From Candidatus Scalindua sp. (GTDB taxonomy: Bacteria; Planctomycetota; Brocadiia; Brocadiales; Scalinduaceae), in the NCBI GenBank assembly GCA_021777035.1, contig JAIQZR010000147.1, positions 1 through 64,000 of the forward strand: a DNA stretch of 64,000 nt, written 5' to 3'. Below are positions 1,228 through 11,044 of this stretch, piece by piece. The translations under genes were made by a program, and so were the position numbers. Within the stretch, counting starts at the first letter, position 1. Every line of letters starts with the position of its first letter. The notes beneath the pieces were generated by a model. That model worked only from the letters and a program-made list of their open reading frames with translations. It was not told the origin of the DNA and did no database searches.

Positions 1228-1785
1228 AGACTAATTTTTTGATTTAAAGATGATAAAAGTAGGCAAAAAGCAAAAACCATGAAAAAACTTCTGATACTTC
1301 TAACTTTGGCAAGCAGAAGCCTCTCGCAAATTTCCAATGCCTAACGTAGCCCTACTCCACATGGCCTGACCCTTCCTACTTCTCCTCTATCCTTTAACTA
1401 TCAAACAAGTATGTCCTTTTAAATCAATTAGTCAAGAAGATTACAGCTTATATTTCCCCTATTTATCGAGGGGCTTAAAGAGATAACATCCCTAATTGGG
1501 TCTCCCGGTGCATCTGTAAAAATCGCTGATGAAGCATTGGGTATGATATAAACTAAATTTTTTGGTGAGTTTCATGTTGCAAAACAACCCCACTCTTTTA
1601 TAATGTCCCTAGACAGGAGGTCGCTACAGATCACTTAACCACATTTTAAATATCTTCAAAAAGAGTTGTTTTATAAAAAGTAAGGCTTTTAATATACATT
1701 TATAAGCACGGGTATTTTCCACAATAGTATTTGCTTTTCAAAAAAAAGGAACTAGGTCTATTGTCCGATAATAAAGGTAAATGTA
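1228..1785. other. Intergenic region before the restriction operon, with a possible gene remnant
   Basis: No intact gene is visible. A short plus-strand open stretch ending in TAA at 1549-1551 has gene-like residue choice (PLFIEGLKEI, then SPGASVKIADEALGMI) but no start codon and may be a decayed 3' end. The last 100 bases are AT-rich and carry the upstream signals of the operon, including AAAGG about nine bases before the ATG at 1786. Confidence 0.35.
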
Positions 1786-3642
1786 ATGGATGGAAAATCA
1801 TTTAATATAACCGAAGAAAAGCTGGATAAGCTTAAAGTAATTATTCCCGAAGCATTTACGGAAGGCAAGGTCGACTGGGAAAAACTGAAGGCTGCCCTGG
1901 GTGAGGATATAGAATTCAGGAATGAGCGCTATGTCTTGAACTGGGCCGGTAAATCTGACGCGTTCAGAGTGCTTCAATCTCCAACCACTGCCACACTCGT
2001 CCCCTGCGAGAAAGAATCCGTCAATTTTGATACCTCAGATAATATCTTTATTGAGGGTGAAAATCTCGAAGTCCTGAAGATCCTCCAGAAATCCTACTTC
2101 GGCAAGATTAAGATGATTTACATTGATCCTCCTTATAATACCGGTAATGACACCTTTATCTATCCCGATAAGTTCTCCGAGACCAAAGGGGAATATTTAA
2201 ACAGGATCGGTGACAAGGATGAAACCGGATTTATGACCCGTGAAGGGTTGTTCCGCAAAAACTCTAAAGATAGCGGCCATTATCACTCCAACTGGCTTTC
2301 GATGATGTACCCGAGGTTGTTTCTGGCAAGGAATCTATTGCGGGATGATGGCGTGATTTTTGTCTCTATTGATGATAATGAAGTGCATAACCTGAGGCTT
2401 CTGATGAATGAGGTGTTTGGTGAGGAAAACTTTGTGGCAAATATTGTTTGGCAAAAGAAATATGCTGCAACAAATGATGCAAAAGGCTTTTCAGCTATGC
2501 ATGACCATATCGTTACTTACCAAAAAACAGAAAATTTCGGAAGAAATTTGTTCCCAAGAACAGTAGAACAAAACAAACCATATAAAAATGATGATGGTGA
2601 TGGCAAAGGATTGTGGCGTTCGGATAATCTTTTGGTAAAAAGCTTTAGCCCATCTGGCGTTTTTGCAATTAAAAACCCAAAAACGAATAAAGAATTTTTT
2701 CCTCCAGAAGGTAGTTGCTGGCGAGGAAATAAAAATACAATTAAAAAATGGTTAGACGAAGGAAGAATTTTTTTTGGCAAAGATGGTAATGGTGCTCCAC
2801 AATTAAAACGATATTTAAATGAAGTCCAAAAAGGACGGGTGCCAACAACATGGTGGCCATTTTCTGAAGCAGGTCATAATGATGCAGCAAACAAAGAATT
2901 GAAATCTCTTTTCAAATCTAAAGCTCCTTTTGACACACCTAAGCCAACAACTTTAATTAAACAAATGATAAAAATAGGTTCTAACGACAACAGTATTGTT
3001 CTCGATTTTTTCTCAGGTTCCTGTACTACCTCCCATGCCGTACTTGACATAAACAAACAAGACGGTGGAAACCGCAAATTTATCTGTGTCCAACTTCCAG
3101 AAAAATGCGAAGAAAAATCAGACGCTTTTAAGGCGGGCTACAAAACTATTGCCGATATCGGTAAAGAGCGTATTCGGCGGGTAATAAAGAAGATCAAGGA
3201 AGATCAGGACGGAAAGCTTGATCTGGACGGAAACATAAGTAAACAGGATTTAGGCTTCAAAGTTTTGAAACTCAGGCAATCCAACTTCAAGATATGGCGT
3301 ACCGGGGTTGAGAACGAAGAGCAGCTTATTAAACAGCTGCAAAAACATCTTGAGCCGCTGGATGAACATGCCAAAACAGAAAATGTTTTATATGAACTGC
3401 TTCTCAAATCCGGCAAGCCCCTTACTTCAAAGATTATCAGGGGAAACGGATATTTTCTGGTAAATGACGATGAACTAATTCTGATCCTCGAAAAAATCAA
3501 TGAAAAGATTATCAAAACGGTTATAGCAGAAAAGCCGGAGAAGGTTATCACGCTTGACCGCTTATTTAAAAACAATGACCAGTTAAAGACCAATACCGCG
3601 TTACAGATGAAGGACGCAGAGATTGATTTCAGGGTGGTGTGA
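1786..3642 (+). CDS. mod: Type III restriction-modification DNA adenine methyltransferase (Mod)
   Basis: This is a 618-residue beta-class N6-adenine methyltransferase. The catalytic DPPYNTG motif starts at D114. The SAM-binding motif comes later, at 407-415, as DFFSGSCTT, with Cys in place of the usual second Gly of FxGSGTT. Between them lies the target-recognition region (about 220-400), visibly more AT-rich than the flanks. Mod binds the asymmetric target, methylates one strand and forms the complex with Res. It opens a five-gene operon, with AAAGG nine bases before its ATG and a 4-base GTGA overlap with the next gene. Res lies at the far end, an unusual distance for a mod-res pair. Confidence 0.93.
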   Translation: MDGKSFNITEEKLDKLKVIIPEAFTEGKVDWEKLKAALGEDIEFRNERYVLNWAGKSDAFRVLQSPTTATLVPCEKESVNFDTSDNIFIEGENLEVLKILQKSYFGKIKMIYIDPPYNTGNDTFIYPDKFSETKGEYLNRIGDKDETGFMTREGLFRKNSKDSGHYHSNWLSMMYPRLFLARNLLRDDGVIFVSIDDNEVHNLRLLMNEVFGEENFVANIVWQKKYAATNDAKGFSAMHDHIVTYQKTENFGRNLFPRTVEQNKPYKNDDGDGKGLWRSDNLLVKSFSPSGVFAIKNPKTNKEFFPPEGSCWRGNKNTIKKWLDEGRIFFGKDGNGAPQLKRYLNEVQKGRVPTTWWPFSEAGHNDAANKELKSLFKSKAPFDTPKPTTLIKQMIKIGSNDNSIVLDFFSGSCTTSHAVLDINKQDGGNRKFICVQLPEKCEEKSDAFKAGYKTIADIGKERIRRVIKKIKEDQDGKLDLDGNISKQDLGFKVLKLRQSNFKIWRTGVENEEQLIKQLQKHLEPLDEHAKTENVLYELLLKSGKPLTSKIIRGNGYFLVNDDELILILEKINEKIIKTVIAEKPEKVITLDRLFKNNDQLKTNTALQMKDAEIDFRVV

Positions 3643-6600
3643 ATATGAAAAAACTGAATCAGATATTTAAACGCCTGGAAATGAACAGGCAGAATGGCCT
3701 GTATATAACTGCTGAGCACAAGTGGCATGGTATCCTACCTCCACGGCTTGTTTGGTTGATAGAGGAGAAATTAAAGCCAATAGCATTTTTCTGCCTTGAA
3801 AACAAACCGCTTGTCTTGTTTTATGATTCACCTGCAAACAAAAAGGAACTCTTTAAAGCTATCTGGAATTTTAACGAATCACCGGTTGTTATTATTAATG
3901 AATCTGATTCAGTAGAAATTTTTAATGGTTTTTCATACTTTAAAGAGGAATCTACCCTAGAGAAACTAGAAAATGAGGAGAATCTCGATAATTTTTCCTA
4001 TTTTGAACTGGTAACCGGAAAATCTTTAGAGAAATATCACCGTGAACTGAAATACCAGAGCAGAGTAGATTATCATCTTCTTGAAAATATTCGTGACGCA
4101 CGAGATATTCTTAAAGAAGAACATGACATTGAGGATTTTCTTGCAAATACGCTTATAGGAAAGTGTATATTTGTGCGATATTTGATAGACCGGAAAGTAA
4201 AAATAAGGTTTGATGGCAAATTACGGAAAAGGAAAAATGCAGATTTTTGTAAACTACTGAGTGACAAAAAAAGAGCAATCAAGTTCTTCAAATATCTGCA
4301 AAATCATTTTAATGGTGAAGCATTTCTGGTTAATGACAGTGAATTGCACAGCGTTTCTCAAAAGGCATTTGATGTATTAAGACATCTTTTGGAAGGAACA
4401 GACTTAAAGAGTGGACAAAGATCACTGTTTGATATCTATGATTTTTCTATTATTCCCGTCAAATTTATAAGTAATGTATATGAGCATTTTATAGGAGCAG
4501 AAACACAGGCTCAAAAAGGCGCTTATTATACACCGGTTTTCCTGGTGGAATATATTCTGTCCGAGACGGTTGAAAATTATTTCAATGATAGCCCGGACAA
4601 ATATAATTGTAAAGTTCTTGATCCCGCATGCGGTTCCGGTATTTTTTTGGTTGAAGCATTAAGGCGTATTATAGAGCACTATTTGAGTCTGAATAATGAG
4701 AGAATTACAAAGAAAGTATTAAGAAGACTTGCCGAAGACAATATATTTGGAATAGACCATGATGAAAATGCTATAAATGTGGCAATCTTTTCGGTATACT
4801 TGGCTTTACTCGATTATTTAAAGGATCCAAAGGACATCGAAAATTTTACCTTCCCGAAACTAAGAGAAAACGGAAATTTCCATGATAAAAATTTCTTTGA
4901 TCTTGAAGCAGAATTTAATAAGGAATTTTCAAAAATTAGTTTTGATTTTATTGTTGGCAATCCTCCCTGGAAACGCGGAAGTTCCTCTGATGCACGGTTT
5001 GTGAAATATATTGATAAAAGGAAAAGAAAAGAAAAAGAATTAAACACCGAGAAAGATACACCAGAAATTGCAATCAGTAACAAAGAAATTGCACAGGCGT
5101 TCTTATTGAGAGCCAGTGATTTTTGTAGTGAACAAACCAAATGCGCATTGATAGTTACCAGTAAAACTCTCTATAATCTCAATGCAAACAAATTTAGAAT
5201 CTATTTCTTACATAATTACTATCTAGACAAAGTTCTTGAACTTGCACCTGTCAGAAGAGAAATTTTTGATAAATCAAATGATCCTTCTATTGCACCTGCA
5301 GCAATTCTGTTTTTTCGATATGCTCATGGAACCCAAACCGACACCAATGTACTGATCCACTTAGCTTTAAAACCAAACCGGATCTTTTCTTTGTTTAAGA
5401 TTTTTGTGCTTCAAAGGCCGGACATAAAGAAAGTCGTACAAAAAAGACTTATGGATCATGACTGGCTCTGGAAAGTGCTGGTTTACGGCAGCTATTTGGA
5501 TTTTAACTTTATCAACAGGTTGAAAGAAGAGTATAAGACTATCGGGGATGATATTTATGATGAAAGCCGTTTTTTAGTTAAACAAGGGTTAAAAAGAAAA
5601 GACGGTGACAAAAAAATATGTGTAAAGGAAATAATCGGTTGGAATTATTTAGATAAAGATAAAAAGGAATTAAAACAATTTTATATTTCTCCGAATCATG
5701 AAAAATGGCAACTATCTGAAGTAGGTTATATTTATAGAGAAAACGATTCGGTTGTCCTGGATGTATTTAAACCTCCATCTTTGTTAGTTTCAGACGCTGT
5801 TAATAATAAATTTCAATCCGTTACGGCACTATCTCTATCCAAGCTAATATTTACTGATAAAACAACTGCTATAAAAGCATATAAAAAGAAAGATATTAAA
5901 TATCTAAAAAGCATTTCAGGTTTATTAAATCTTGATTTTTGTGCGTATTATCTGCTTCAAACTGGTTCTAACATTGGAATTGAACGTGAACAGGTCCATG
6001 ATGTTGAAAAGTTCAGCCTTCCCTATGTTGATAATCCTAATTTTGCTGAATTAGTCGAAAAAATTGAAATAATCAATAAAAAGCGGTATGAAACAAAATT
6101 ATTAAGCCCAGACATTGATATATTAGAACGTGAAAAACAGTGCCTAGTTGATGAACTAAATGAGGAAATATTCAAAGGTTTTGATCTCGATGAACAGGAG
6201 CTTGCCCTCGTTGATTACGCCGTGAATGTTACCATCCCTATGATTACGAGGCATAGGGGATACGAAAGAGAACTTTTCTCTCCCCTTCCTTTTAGAGATA
6301 AATTGTTAGAAAAGTATATAAAAGTATTTCTTTCCCGTTTTGAAGCATCATTCAGAGAAAAGCATCTTAGAGCGGAGATATGGCATACCGGCAATATTGT
6401 TGGAATTTTTTTTAATGTTGTTCCAAACAATTCCTCTGATAAGCAGGTAATTGAGTGGCGGGAGAAGACAAATAAAAAGTTATTGAATAAAATTGTGTCA
6501 TTAGGCACTGAAAAAGTTACGAAAGATTTATTTATTCAAAAAGATATTCGTGGATTCGAGAAAAAGGGTTTTTATATAATAAAACCTAACGAAAAAAGAC

Positions 6601-6686
6601 TCTGGCATAAAGCAATGGGTTATCTTGACGTAGACAAATTTATGGACGCTATACTCAAGGCAGGTAAAGAGGAATATAATGGATAA
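3639..6686 (+). CDS. Eco57I-like class I N6-adenine DNA methyltransferase
   Basis: This is a 1015-residue protein with a gamma-type adenine methyltransferase core: a GAYYTP segment, SAM motif I DPACGSG near 328, a GIDHDE acidic motif, and the catalytic NPPW near 441. About 300 residues precede the core, and about 500 follow it, the likely target-recognition region. Length and order resemble type IIG enzymes or PglX-like proteins, but I see no clear PD-(D/E)XK nuclease motif in the N-terminal part. The start is GTG at 3639 overlapping the mod stop, or ATG at 3645. The gene sits inside a mod...res operon, giving two different DNA methyltransferases in one transcription unit. Base composition is more AT-rich than mod and res. 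Confidence 0.85.
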   Translation: MNMKKLNQIFKRLEMNRQNGLYITAEHKWHGILPPRLVWLIEEKLKPIAFFCLENKPLVLFYDSPANKKELFKAIWNFNESPVVIINESDSVEIFNGFSYFKEESTLEKLENEENLDNFSYFELVTGKSLEKYHRELKYQSRVDYHLLENIRDARDILKEEHDIEDFLANTLIGKCIFVRYLIDRKVKIRFDGKLRKRKNADFCKLLSDKKRAIKFFKYLQNHFNGEAFLVNDSELHSVSQKAFDVLRHLLEGTDLKSGQRSLFDIYDFSIIPVKFISNVYEHFIGAETQAQKGAYYTPVFLVEYILSETVENYFNDSPDKYNCKVLDPACGSGIFLVEALRRIIEHYLSLNNERITKKVLRRLAEDNIFGIDHDENAINVAIFSVYLALLDYLKDPKDIENFTFPKLRENGNFHDKNFFDLEAEFNKEFSKISFDFIVGNPPWKRGSSSDARFVKYIDKRKRKEKELNTEKDTPEIAISNKEIAQAFLLRASDFCSEQTKCALIVTSKTLYNLNANKFRIYFLHNYYLDKVLELAPVRREIFDKSNDPSIAPAAILFFRYAHGTQTDTNVLIHLALKPNRIFSLFKIFVLQRPDIKKVVQKRLMDHDWLWKVLVYGSYLDFNFINRLKEEYKTIGDDIYDESRFLVKQGLKRKDGDKKICVKEIIGWNYLDKDKKELKQFYISPNHEKWQLSEVGYIYRENDSVVLDVFKPPSLLVSDAVNNKFQSVTALSLSKLIFTDKTTAIKAYKKKDIKYLKSISGLLNLDFCAYYLLQTGSNIGIEREQVHDVEKFSLPYVDNPNFAELVEKIEIINKKRYETKLLSPDIDILEREKQCLVDELNEEIFKGFDLDEQELALVDYAVNVTIPMITRHRGYERELFSPLPFRDKLLEKYIKVFLSRFEASFREKHLRAEIWHTGNIVGIFFNVVPNNSSDKQVIEWREKTNKKLLNKIVSLGTEKVTKDLFIQKDIRGFEKKGFYIIKPNEKRLWHKAMGYLDVDKFMDAILKAGKEEYNG

Positions 6687-7344
6687 TCTGAATGCCTTTG
6701 ATTTTCAATATAGAAATGAACCCTATGAGCTTGAGTTTGAAAAAATTCTTAATGGAATTACCGCTTGTTATAGAATGATGATCAAAGATAACGTTACGGT
6801 GCCGTCAAATGATGAAAACAGAATAAGAGATATTCTGCTGTTGGATTATATTAGAAAGATAAAAAATAAAGTCAATTTAACAAATTATCGCTTTGATAGA
6901 GAAATTTCGGAAGATACCACTAAAGGGAGAGTTGATATCAGAATAATATCAATAAATGATTTTAAGATTGATGAAGCATATTATACCATTGAATGTAAAA
7001 GGTTAGACAATCGAAAGCCAACAGGAACTTCAGGTTTAAATGGAAAATATATTAACGAAGGAATAATGAGATTTATTAATGAATATTATTCATCCTACTA
7101 CGGCGTGAATGGTATGATTGGCTTTGTGGTTGGAAAAATGAATATCGATAACAATACTAAAAGTATAAACGAATTATTAACCAATAATTTCAAAACTGCA
7201 AATACCCAAAAAAAACTAACACATGTTGATTTTATTAAAAAGTTCAAACATTCATATTATTCTATTCACAAAGATATCAAAGATAAGAAGATTAAACTCT
7301 ATCACCTGATGTTCGATTTCTCGGCAAATTTAAAGAGTAAATAA
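6679..7344 (+). CDS. Small PD-(D/E)XK nuclease-like protein of the restriction operon
   Basis: This 221-residue protein starts at an ATG overlapping the end of the methyltransferase gene by 8 bases. The segment GRVDIRI followed by YYTIECKRL gives D86, E105 and K107, the spacing and beta-strand setting of a PD-(D/E)XK active site (D-x18-E-x-K). No other domain is recognised; the C-terminal 80 residues are Lys-rich and mixed. Its position between the second methyltransferase and the DUF1828 gene suggests it supplies a cleavage or DNA-binding activity for that methyltransferase. The nuclease reading is inferred from the motif only; a catalytically dead accessory fold is the alternative. Confidence 0.6.
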   Translation: MDNLNAFDFQYRNEPYELEFEKILNGITACYRMMIKDNVTVPSNDENRIRDILLLDYIRKIKNKVNLTNYRFDREISEDTTKGRVDIRIISINDFKIDEAYYTIECKRLDNRKPTGTSGLNGKYINEGIMRFINEYYSSYYGVNGMIGFVVGKMNIDNNTKSINELLTNNFKTANTQKKLTHVDFIKKFKHSYYSIHKDIKDKKIKLYHLMFDFSANLKSK

Positions 7345-7357
7345 TTGAGATACCACT

Positions 7358-8176
7358 TTGATCCAATTCAACAGTATAAGCCTTGATATGAGTATAAAGC
7401 AGTTAGAAATACAAAACAAATTAAGAAAAGTTGTTTCCTGTGAAATATCATTATTAGAAGAGGGAATTGACCGTTTCCGTGTTTTCACACCCTTTGAATT
7501 TGAAGACGGAGACCACTTTTCAATCGTACTCAAGAAAAATGGCGAGTATTGGATATTCAGTGATGAAGCACACACAATCATGCATATGAGCTATGACATG
7601 GATATTTCCGTACTTAAAAAAGGAAGTCGACAGAAAATTATTACTAATACTCTCTTAAATTTCGGAATAGATGAAAATAACGGGACGTTATCAATAAAAG
7701 CTAAAGAGGAAAATCTTGGAAACGCTTTTTATAATTTTGTTCAAGCCTTAGTCAAGATAACAGACTTGTCCTACCTGAGCAAAGAACATGTCCGTTCAAC
7801 ATTTTATGAGGATTTCAGATCACTGTTAAGTGAAAATGTAGAACCGGATCGTTTGGCATTTGACTATACACACCCTGAACATGACAAAGAAGGAAAATAT
7901 GTTGTTGATTGCCGTATAAATGGGACGTCCAAGCCTGTCTACCTCTTTGCCATTCCCAACAACAGTAAATGCAAAGATGTGATGATCTCAATGTACCAGT
8001 TTGAACGCTGGGGGGTTAGATATAACTCAGTTTCAATATTTGAAGATCAGGAAAATATAAATCGGCGTGTACTCGCAAAATTCAGTGATATCGGAGAGAA
8101 ACAATTTTCTTCTCTGCTTTCCAACAAGGAACGCATCAGGAAATATCTATCTGAACAAATTGAAGATATCTCATGA
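7358..8176 (+). CDS. DUF1828/DUF1829 domain protein
   Basis: This 272-residue protein resembles the DUF1828 (about residues 35-115; key segment GDHFSIVLKKNGEYWIFSDE) plus DUF1829 (about 150-260) architecture seen in small accessory genes of bacterial and phage islands, whose function is not established. The start is either TTG at 7358 or, in the same frame, ATG at 7388; neither has a clear Shine-Dalgarno sequence. It overlaps the Res gene by ATGA, so the two are probably translationally coupled. In this operon it may regulate or assemble the restriction complex. Confidence 0.65.
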   Translation: MIQFNSISLDMSIKQLEIQNKLRKVVSCEISLLEEGIDRFRVFTPFEFEDGDHFSIVLKKNGEYWIFSDEAHTIMHMSYDMDISVLKKGSRQKIITNTLLNFGIDENNGTLSIKAKEENLGNAFYNFVQALVKITDLSYLSKEHVRSTFYEDFRSLLSENVEPDRLAFDYTHPEHDKEGKYVVDCRINGTSKPVYLFAIPNNSKCKDVMISMYQFERWGVRYNSVSIFEDQENINRRVLAKFSDIGEKQFSSLLSNKERIRKYLSEQIEDIS

Positions 8177-10800
8177 AATTTCACTTTGATCCAAACCAGC
8201 AATACCAGCTCGATGCGGTTAATTCAATCATAACTGTTTTTGAAGGCCAGCCCCTGGAACACGGTGATTTCAGTTTTACGATTGATGATAAAAATTACCT
8301 GTTTAAGGTAGATGGCGTTGGAAACCTTCTGAAATTGAGTGAAGAGCAGATACTTGAAAACGTCAAATCCGTTCAGGCAAAGAATGAACTGCCCGTTGCC
8401 GCCTCCCTTGACGGGATGAACTTTTCCGTTGAAATGGAAACAGGCACCGGCAAAACCTATGTTTATCTGAGAACAATCTATGAATTAAATAAAAACTATG
8501 GATTTAAAAAGTTTGTTATTGTCGTACCTTCCATAGCTATCCGAGAAGGCGTGCTGAAGAATCTTGAGATCACGTTTGAGCATTTTCAAAATCTTTATGA
8601 TAAGACACCGGCCAATTTTGAAGTTTACGACCGCAAACGTATTTCCAATCTGCGGAACTTCTGCATAAGCAATGCGATTCAGATACTGGTCATCAATATT
8701 GATTCATTTGCCAAGGATGAAAATGTCATAAACAATCCTAATGATAAACTGACAGGAAAGAAACCGATAGAGTTCATTCAGGCCACATCACCTGTTGTAA
8801 TTGTAGATGAACCACAGAATATGGAGACAGAAATAAGGAAAAGGGCGATAGGAAATCTTAACCCACTCTGTACCTTGCGTTATTCTGCCACTCATATAAA
8901 CAGGTATAATATGGTTTACAATCTTGATCCCGTAAAGGCATACGACCTTGGTCTTGTCAAACAGATAGAAGTGGATTCAATCGTCACGGAAAATGATTTT
9001 AATAAGGCTCTGGTCACTCTTGAAAAAACTCATGCCACGAAAACCAGTACTTCCGCGAAAGTCAAGATTGATGTAAATACAAAAGACGGAGTAAAACGGA
9101 AGTCTGTTACCGTAAAAGTTGGAGATGACCTGTACCTGCTTTCAAACAAAAGGGAGATTTATAAGAACGGCTATATAGTAAACGGAATTGATGTTGGCGA
9201 CGGATTTATTGAACTTTCCAATGGCGAGATCCTGTTTCTTGGCGACACATTGGGAGGTCTTAATGATGAGGTGATGAAGGTACAGATAAGGAAGACCGTT
9301 GAAGAGCATTTCCTGAAAGAGAAAAAATATAAAGACAAAGGCATAAAAGTACTCTCTCTCATTTTTGTTGATCGTGTCTCGAATTACCGTTCCTATGATT
9401 CTGACGGTAAGCCTCTGAAAGGCAAGTTTGCCGAATGGTTTGAAAATACTTATCGTGACATCTCAGGGAAAACCGTTTATAAGGGATTAATTCCATTTAA
9501 AGCTGAAGACGTTCACAATGGTTATTTCTCTCAGGACAAAAAGGGACAATGGAAAGACACCAAGGGTAATACGTTGGCAGATGACGACACATTCAAACTT
9601 ATCATGAAAAATAAGGAGAGGCTTCTGGATACAGTTGAGCCTCTTCGTTTTGTTTTCAGTCATTCTGCTCTCAGAGAGGGTTGGGACAATCCGAATGTTT
9701 TTCAAATATGTACGCTGAATGAAACACAATCTGAAATGAAAAAAAGACAGGAAATTGGACGAGGGCTGAGGTTATGTGTAAATCAGGATGGCAGTCGAAT
9801 ACATGATACAAACATCAATCTTCTTACTGTCATTGCCAATGAGGCTTATGAAGATTTTGCAAAACAGTTACAAAGCGAGATTGAGGAGGATTGCGGTGTC
9901 TCATTCAAAGATCGAGTTAAGAACAAACGGAAGAGAAAGATGGTAAAATATCGTAAGGGGTTTGAACTTGATGATAAATTTAAGGAGATCTGGAACAGGA
10001 TCAATTATCGAACAATGTACAGAGTGGAATATGGCACTCCAGTATTGATTCAAAAAGCGGTAAAAGCAGTGGAACAGATGCCAATAATTAAAAAGGCAAT
10101 GATAAAAACAACCAGGACTGCTCTTGAATTTAATGATAGCGGTATTGTTGCTGAAATACAAGCGTCGTATACAACCACGCTTGCTGATGCATTCAGTATT
10201 CCTGATCTGCTTTATTACATACAAGAAAGAACAAATCTCACACGAGCTACAATTCTGGAAATTCTAAAGAAATCCGGCAGAATTGGTGATGTGTTTATAA
10301 ACCCTCAGCTTTTTCTTGATAATGCCGTATTAGCGATAAAAGAGGTCCTGTTTGAATTGATGATAGACGGCATCAAGTATGAGAAAATTGGAACGAAAGA
10401 ATATGAGATGCGTCTGTTTGAAGATTATGAAGTTCATGTAAACGATCTGACTTTCAACATATCAAAAAAAGAGAAAACTATTTACAGCAATCTCTGTCCG
10501 CTTGATTCACATGTAGAGTATGAATTTGCCAGAGAATGTGAAAGCAGGGATGACATTGAATTCTACTTTAAACTTCCTTCCAAGTTTAAGATTAAAACGC
10601 CAATAGGCAATTACAACCCGGACTGGGCATTGATTAAGAAGAACGAAAAGACTGTCTATTTTGTAGCTGAAACAAAATCAGAAGGACAGGAGTTAAGGGC
10701 CAGCGAAAAGAGAAAGATTGAATGTGGCCGTGCTCATTTTAGAGAATTTGATGATGTCAAATACAAACAGGTTGTTACTGTGAGTGAATTGGATTATTAA
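8173..10800 (+). CDS. res: Type III restriction endonuclease subunit (Res)
   Basis: This 875-residue SF2 helicase-nuclease has Walker A METGTGKT at about 88-95, the type III Walker B variant DEPQ near 212, helicase motif VI QEIGRGLRL in the middle, and a C-terminal endonuclease with PD at 816-817 and ETK at 833-835. Length and motif order match known type III Res subunits. Res translocates or diffuses along DNA using ATP and cuts when two head-to-head unmodified sites communicate. It is the last gene of the operon, coupled to the DUF1828 gene by an ATGA overlap. All motifs needed for activity are present. Confidence 0.93.
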   Translation: MKFHFDPNQQYQLDAVNSIITVFEGQPLEHGDFSFTIDDKNYLFKVDGVGNLLKLSEEQILENVKSVQAKNELPVAASLDGMNFSVEMETGTGKTYVYLRTIYELNKNYGFKKFVIVVPSIAIREGVLKNLEITFEHFQNLYDKTPANFEVYDRKRISNLRNFCISNAIQILVINIDSFAKDENVINNPNDKLTGKKPIEFIQATSPVVIVDEPQNMETEIRKRAIGNLNPLCTLRYSATHINRYNMVYNLDPVKAYDLGLVKQIEVDSIVTENDFNKALVTLEKTHATKTSTSAKVKIDVNTKDGVKRKSVTVKVGDDLYLLSNKREIYKNGYIVNGIDVGDGFIELSNGEILFLGDTLGGLNDEVMKVQIRKTVEEHFLKEKKYKDKGIKVLSLIFVDRVSNYRSYDSDGKPLKGKFAEWFENTYRDISGKTVYKGLIPFKAEDVHNGYFSQDKKGQWKDTKGNTLADDDTFKLIMKNKERLLDTVEPLRFVFSHSALREGWDNPNVFQICTLNETQSEMKKRQEIGRGLRLCVNQDGSRIHDTNINLLTVIANEAYEDFAKQLQSEIEEDCGVSFKDRVKNKRKRKMVKYRKGFELDDKFKEIWNRINYRTMYRVEYGTPVLIQKAVKAVEQMPIIKKAMIKTTRTALEFNDSGIVAEIQASYTTTLADAFSIPDLLYYIQERTNLTRATILEILKKSGRIGDVFINPQLFLDNAVLAIKEVLFELMIDGIKYEKIGTKEYEMRLFEDYEVHVNDLTFNISKKEKTIYSNLCPLDSHVEYEFARECESRDDIEFYFKLPSKFKIKTPIGNYNPDWALIKKNEKTVYFVAETKSEGQELRASEKRKIECGRAHFREFDDVKYKQVVTVSELDY

Positions 10801-11044
10801 ACAGCTTTATTATTTTATGGATACTTTTAAGGTGTAAATAGTAAATCCGTGATGAATTAGAATCCCAACTCAACAGGATATTCAAGACATAGGCGTTTTG
10901 GCAAACTCACCTTTTTCCAGCCCTTCAATTTCATCATTTAATGCCAAACCCGTGTTTGTTGTTGCTGTTTCGCCAGTTATCTGTATAATGCCTGAATACG
11001 GTATTAGTTAAGAAGATATACAATTACGAAAGTGGGAACAACTT
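10801..11044. other. Intergenic region with a possible gene fragment
   Basis: No gene with a start codon is seen. On the minus strand a 41-codon open stretch ends in TGA near 10886 (C-terminal residues EIEGLEKGEFAKTPMS). It looks protein-like but lacks a start codon and may be a decayed 3' end. Confidence 0.25.

Follow-up and report, generated by a model that had tools for sequence, protein, structure and literature searches.

In type III restriction-modification (R-M) systems, mod and res usually lie directly adjacent to each other. Accessory genes in the operons of type I and type III systems are already known: PrrC sits within a type I operon (PMC12707154), type I or III loci are also known to harbour RloC genes (PMC2610378), and two papers report toxin-like domains in type I and III operons, as well as paraMORC-Ymh and RhuM genes in R-M neighbourhoods (Makarova 2012, PMC3506569; Anantharaman 2013, PMC3710099).

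The locus described here belongs to a stretch of 64,000 nucleotides of a Candidatus Scalindua sp. contig (JAIQZR010000147.1), which is called the window below. It resembles EcoP15I-like type III systems in its beta-class Mod, in its Res composed of a helicase and a C-terminal PD-(D/E)XK endonuclease, and in the order with mod first and res last. However, its mod and res are separated by 4.5 kb that hold three genes, and its Res is short and divergent. One of the three intervening genes encodes a methyltransferase that matches the type IIG (Eco57I/MmeI-like) family PDLC03603 over its full length. Unlike type IIG enzymes, it has an N-terminus without a conserved D/E-x-K, and a nuclease-like motif is found on a separate 221-aa protein. 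With EcoprrI/PrrC, the rlo genes in type I hsd loci and RloC, the locus shares the embedding of accessory defence genes in an R-M operon. The cargo of those loci consists mostly of toxins or anticodon nucleases, whereas here it is a putative second R-M system in a type III operon, and the junctions at which cargo was swapped are resolved at base level. The reports on toxin and HEPN genes (PMC3506569, PMC3710099) are similar in the general association and in the idea of cargo replacement, but their accessible parts describe no mod-res slot, no near-exact cassette swap and no nested complete R-M system. In the open-access literature searched, we found no description of a complete further R-M system placed in a mod-res slot whose content is exchanged, and nothing specific on genes between mod and res, on PDC-M24, or on RhuM or DUF1828 with type III systems.

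We consider it probable that the locus is a short-Res type III operon whose mod-res interval serves as a cargo slot, occupied by a self-contained second R-M system (the methyltransferase and a separate putative nuclease) and by a DUF1828 accessory gene. This reading is built on gene content, pairing, standalone occurrence, a conserved motif, an empty site and swap junctions, all of them taken from sequence.

Organisation of the operon and its island

Positions 1786-10800 are filled by five co-directional, intact open reading frames (ORFs): mod, the methyltransferase, the small protein, the DUF1828 gene and res. The sequence-only reading had placed a five-gene operon exactly here, and the family scans agree with it, save that its "DUF1828/1829" protein yielded DUF1828 and not DUF1829. 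The features are as follows:

1543..10928, no strand: island of 9.4 kb with the whole operon, missing at the matching site in two congeneric genomes
1786..3642, + strand: mod, type III (beta-class) DNA methyltransferase, 618 aa (PADLOC MTase_III, E 4e-207; Pfam N6_N4_Mtase, E 2e-37)
3643..8172, + strand: cargo slot from the mod stop to the res start (unrelated genes at the equivalent interval in sister loci, near-exact swap junctions)
3645..6686, + strand: Eco57I-like N6-adenine methyltransferase of the nested cassette; ORF open from GTG 3639, 1015 aa (PADLOC, Pfam, homologue starts)
6679..7344, + strand: small protein of PD-(D/E)XK-like type, the suggested nuclease of the nested pair, 221 aa (conserved residues, gene pairing)
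7388..8176, + strand: DUF1828 protein, separate accessory gene; ORF open from TTG 7358, 272 aa (Pfam DUF1828, E 6e-23)
8173..10800, + strand: res, type III restriction subunit of the short subfamily, 875 aa (PADLOC REase_III, E 1e-302; Pfam ResIII and RE_endonuc, E 5e-34)

In Mod, DPPY (at 114) precedes DFFSGS (at 407), i.e. motif IV comes before motif I, which is the beta-class order. Res contains GTGKT (Walker A, at 91), DEPQ (at 212), GRGLR (at 529) and PD...ETK (at 816-835), and thus unites the SF2 helicase and the C-terminal PD-(D/E)XK endonuclease expected of a type III enzyme; it is of the short type (about 875 aa) and divergent past residue about 579. The two genes are separated by 4530 bp and three genes instead of being neighbours, and we treat the locus as a type III variant because such a gapped arrangement is common in the short-Res subfamily.

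The genes had been described as overlapping or nearly touching throughout. Two of the junctions were borne out, the 8-bp overlap of the methyltransferase and small genes (6679-6686) and the ATGA overlap of the DUF1828 gene with res (8173-8176), while the other two probably have to be revised. Homologues of the methyltransferase start at the codon that matches ATG 3645, 2 bp past the mod stop, so the supposed GTGA overlap is probably a 2-bp gap; and homologue L047 points to ATG 7388 rather than TTG 7358 as the probable start of the DUF1828 gene, which makes the gap to the small gene about 43 bp and not 13. The GC content is 33.5% in the methyltransferase gene and 28.2% in the small gene, against 39.7% in mod and 38.3% in res. 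Scans for promoters and terminators gave signals no higher than in shuffled sequence.

Window positions 1542 and 10929 abut in two congeneric loci, L092 (genome G743) and L088 (G322), and the flanks are 80-96% identical. With these positions adjacent and both flanks conserved, the 9386 bp between them are therefore absent from the two genomes. The earlier view of the genes as a single operon-like unit agrees with their arrival in the genome as one island. No direct repeat, att site or target-site duplication at the island ends reaches 8 bp.

Occurrence of the methyltransferase and small genes

Eight relatives of the nested methyltransferase were found, and in all seven loci with sufficient contig (six relatives and the window) the small gene directly follows it. 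The pair lies between mod and res in the window, L002 (Auribacterota), L004 (Planctomycetota) and L006 (Elusimicrobia), while its surroundings in L003 (Brocadiaceae) and L005 (Desulfobacter) are unrelated genes, without mod or res; the pairs of L007 and L009 have no mod upstream. In the methyltransferase tree, the nested copy of L006 groups with that of L007 (support 99/99), apart from the relatives of the window. More remotely, a Methylobacterium plasmid encodes a methylase 25% identical to that of the window, followed by a 229-aa gene whose product has no BLAST-detectable similarity to the small protein, and an Agrobacterium plasmid has a methylase gene overlapped by one whose product is 30% identical to the small protein. 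In L008 (Brocadia carolinensis; 8004-11030) the methyltransferase has decayed, with 11 stops, and of mod just the final 33 codons are left in front of it; the reading frame of the small nuclease-like gene has stayed open.

Because the pair also stands without mod and res elsewhere, we regard the two-gene cassette, as judged from sequence, as most likely an independent R-M system. The proposal of a second modification module in the middle of the operon thus holds, but its extension to the three middle genes as one block does not, since no relative has a DUF1828 gene travelling with the pair, and proteins of the DUF1828 family are encoded elsewhere with neither partner present. The same gene order in other genomes was likewise found only in part: the nested pair recurs in L002, L004 and L006, but with the DUF1828 gene in no relative. 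By its distribution, the DUF1828 gene is a separate passenger of the slot, and its membership in the nested unit was ruled out on these grounds. Its relatives in Planctomycetota lie elsewhere in the genomes, often beside a DUF6978-like gene and with no type III link. In L048 (3927-5169), L049 (4862-6183) and L052 (4129-5324) the DUF1828 gene forms a two-gene unit with an upstream gene of 137-188 aa, which is DUF6978-like in two of the three. A comparison of the DUF1828 protein with PDB sequences returned no match.

The interval between mod and res

Relatives of Res were sought in three phyla (samples of Planctomycetota and two others) and in one plasmid collection. Seventeen short-Res loci with an upstream mod were obtained (L004, L006, L014, L057-L067 and L073-L075), of which L057 and L058 are near-duplicates and several are cut by contig ends. 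All but two (L063 and L075) have genes between mod and res, with the following contents:

Window-type methyltransferase/small-gene cassette: L004, L006
paraMORC/Ymh protein (ATPase), C5 methyltransferase and Vsr endonuclease: L064 (4568-7654)
PHP/SMC-like ATPase and AlbA/Schlafen: L014, L065, L066
AlbA/Schlafen: L057, L058, L060
OLD-like ATPase-TOPRIM: L061
AAA_13, the Pfam family of RloC/PrrC: L062
DUF4062: L059
GmrSD: L074
YhcG: L073, also L006
Bro-N: L067, also L006

The genes in L064 make up another R-M-like set, of a different kind, within a type III operon. About half of 18 loci with a longer Res also contain cargo, including RhuM, YhcG, Bro-N and DUF262-HNH. Save for short unassigned ORFs, the cargo is co-directional with mod and res, and in 11 loci with unrelated cargo its last gene overlaps res by 4 bp; given this conserved overlap, cargo and res might be coupled in function instead of the cargo being simply parked there. 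A different, recurrent extended arrangement is seen in three long-Res type III loci, L021 (6740-9988), L022 (7022-10974) and L076 (2838-5687), where a gene for a SNF2-type helicase lies upstream of mod; the helicase of L021 matches PADLOC DrmD at 8e-199, and in L022 a DUF4391 gene comes next.

How sharply cargo is exchanged can be seen from L004 and L014, which occupy one site in one genus, with the upstream chromosomal region 83-88% identical. The 3' ends of their mod genes are 96.7% identical to 2 bp past the stop, the match resumes (92.4%) 6 bp before res, and the genes between these conserved ends are unrelated; L014 has an extra 86-bp copy of the mod tail directly before the ATPase gene. 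An equivalent swap pattern between mod and res distinguishes L064 from L065 and L066 (Desulfobacterota). In the Res tree, L004, with the window-type cassette, and L014, with other cargo, are sisters (support 99), L064 groups with L065 and L066 (support 99), and L006, again with the window-type cassette, falls into an AlbA-bearing group away from the clade of the window (support 100). These placements, together with the swap junctions, mean that the cargo has changed repeatedly and that the window-type cassette occurs in at least two separate Res clades. Some of the swaps may be degenerative, because the operons of L014, L057 and L064 are decayed; the res of L064 contains a stop. In L014 (4639-12769), where a large in-frame deletion has removed an internal part of mod and res is broken, the reading frames of the cargo have stayed open; cargo may thus be able to outlast its host operon.

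The sequence-only reading had named as its own refutation an unrelated type IIG cluster inserted by chance. A IIG-like cluster is largely what we see, but not chance, since the mod-res interval is a recurrent cargo slot. That reading had proposed a composite enzyme, in which the extra methyltransferase and the small protein work with Mod and Res to give two methylation specificities on one restriction helicase. The tight co-directional packing, the 4-bp overlap into res and the nesting of the cassette in type III operons of four genomes (three phyla as labelled) are what one would expect of such an enzyme. However, the shared helicase is left unsupported by a pair that exists without mod and res in L003 and L005, and remotely on the two plasmids, and that brings its own PD-(D/E)XK-like protein, while mod and res persist in sister type III operons whose cargo is unrelated or missing; we therefore regard the composite enzyme as unlikely.

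It is tempting to view the slot in another way, as the seat of a guard such as PrrC in the EcoprrI type I operon, where the cargo, including the DUF1828 gene, would be a second line triggered when a phage inhibits the type III enzyme, and the pair would mainly be a back-up. OLD-like, AAA_13, RhuM, GmrSD and paraMORC-Ymh genes in the slots of other loci are compatible with this idea, and a coupling of toxins in type I and III operons has been proposed (PMC3506569, PMC3710099). On the other hand, the main cargo of the window is a methyltransferase and a DNA-nuclease-like protein, with no recognised toxin, and DUF1828 relatives occur without any R-M link, which makes a guard improbable for this locus.

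The nested pair and a proposed explanation

The cargo slot with a second R-M system remains our preferred reading, and it depends on what the two nested proteins are. The methyltransferase matches PADLOC REase_MTase_IIG (PDLC03603, E 2e-282) and Pfam Eco57I (E 2.5e-19), and contains DPACGSG at 328 and NPPW at 441. The family match and the motifs agree with the N6-adenine methyltransferase domain and fused C-terminal specificity region of type IIG enzymes, the latter region being putatively assigned here from length and variability. The endonuclease that type IIG enzymes carry in the same polypeptide is not apparent in the N-terminal region, whose first 200 residues have no invariant D/E-x-K in an alignment of eight homologues, although a nuclease elsewhere in the chain is possible. 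A search against PDB sequences gave no match, nor did Foldseek find a usable one in the PDB for a structure model built from a shallow alignment (pLDDT 45). A degenerate PD-(D/E)XK domain at the N-terminus was considered for its predicted strand order, but a model of this quality does not justify the assignment. Assignments to MADS MAD2 (53 bits, cut-off 720), BREX PglX (45 bits, cut-off 400) and DISARM DrmMI (far below the cut-off) were rejected, and the operon has no BREX or DISARM partner genes. The methyltransferase was not found in phage records, nor the small protein in viral contigs, and thus there is no sign of phage carriage.

As proposed earlier, the small protein carries the residues of a PD-(D/E)XK-like active site: D86, E105 and K107 are invariant, together with their spacing, in seven homologues of 47-67% identity, and the residues are kept in the 30%-identical Agrobacterium relative. 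Its Pfam and PADLOC scans and a profile search against PDB sequences returned no match, and an AlphaFold model (shallow alignment, pLDDT 43) had none in the PDB by Foldseek at E<=0.001; one of six family members matches PDDEXK_9 weakly (E 0.023). From the three conserved residues and the gene pairing, we propose that the small protein is the putative nuclease of the nested pair. The simplest reading, which we infer, would be a split IIG-like R-M system with cutting placed in the small protein. Alternatively, the small protein could be a partner or regulator with no catalytic role, and the methyltransferase a solitary enzyme of epigenetic function that is simply parked in the operon. This would suit the missing fold and family matches of the former and the lack of a detectable nuclease motif in the latter, but it is very improbable given the invariant D86...E105-x-K107 spacing, its residues kept at 30% identity, and a deep pairing that fits a restriction subunit.

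For the cargo-slot reading, enzyme activities, target sites, nuclease recruitment, expression order and recombination route are inferred as follows. Mod and Res would work in the ATP-driven manner usual for type III systems, protecting and cutting at one asymmetric site; the nested methyltransferase would mark another site and the small protein, guided by the methyltransferase, would cut unmarked DNA. With both methyltransferases early and res last, the order of the genes would favour protection ahead of cutting in a cell that the island has newly entered. Cargo could be exchanged by recombination in the conserved 3' end of mod and 5' end of res, and the position between these genes may guard the cargo against loss, since a cell that lost mod but kept res would be harmed. 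More tentatively, and with somewhat less than even confidence, we suggest that the type III mod-res gap is a general docking slot served by recombination, where an addictive, self-protecting operon anchors and co-expresses defence modules that can be exchanged and range up to complete R-M systems, one of these modules belonging to a split IIG-like two-gene R-M family whose nuclease has moved to a small PD-(D/E)XK protein.

If true, the two-gene cassette would represent a small R-M family that divides its functions between two proteins, one for methylation and specificity and the other for cutting; current model libraries recognise it as type IIG and nothing more, and overlook the nuclease gene. 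If the mod-res gap is a swap slot, any gene between mod and res becomes a candidate undescribed defence gene. Such a slot would also make it testable why R-M operons gather defences, be it by addictive anchoring, res-last expression or guard coupling.
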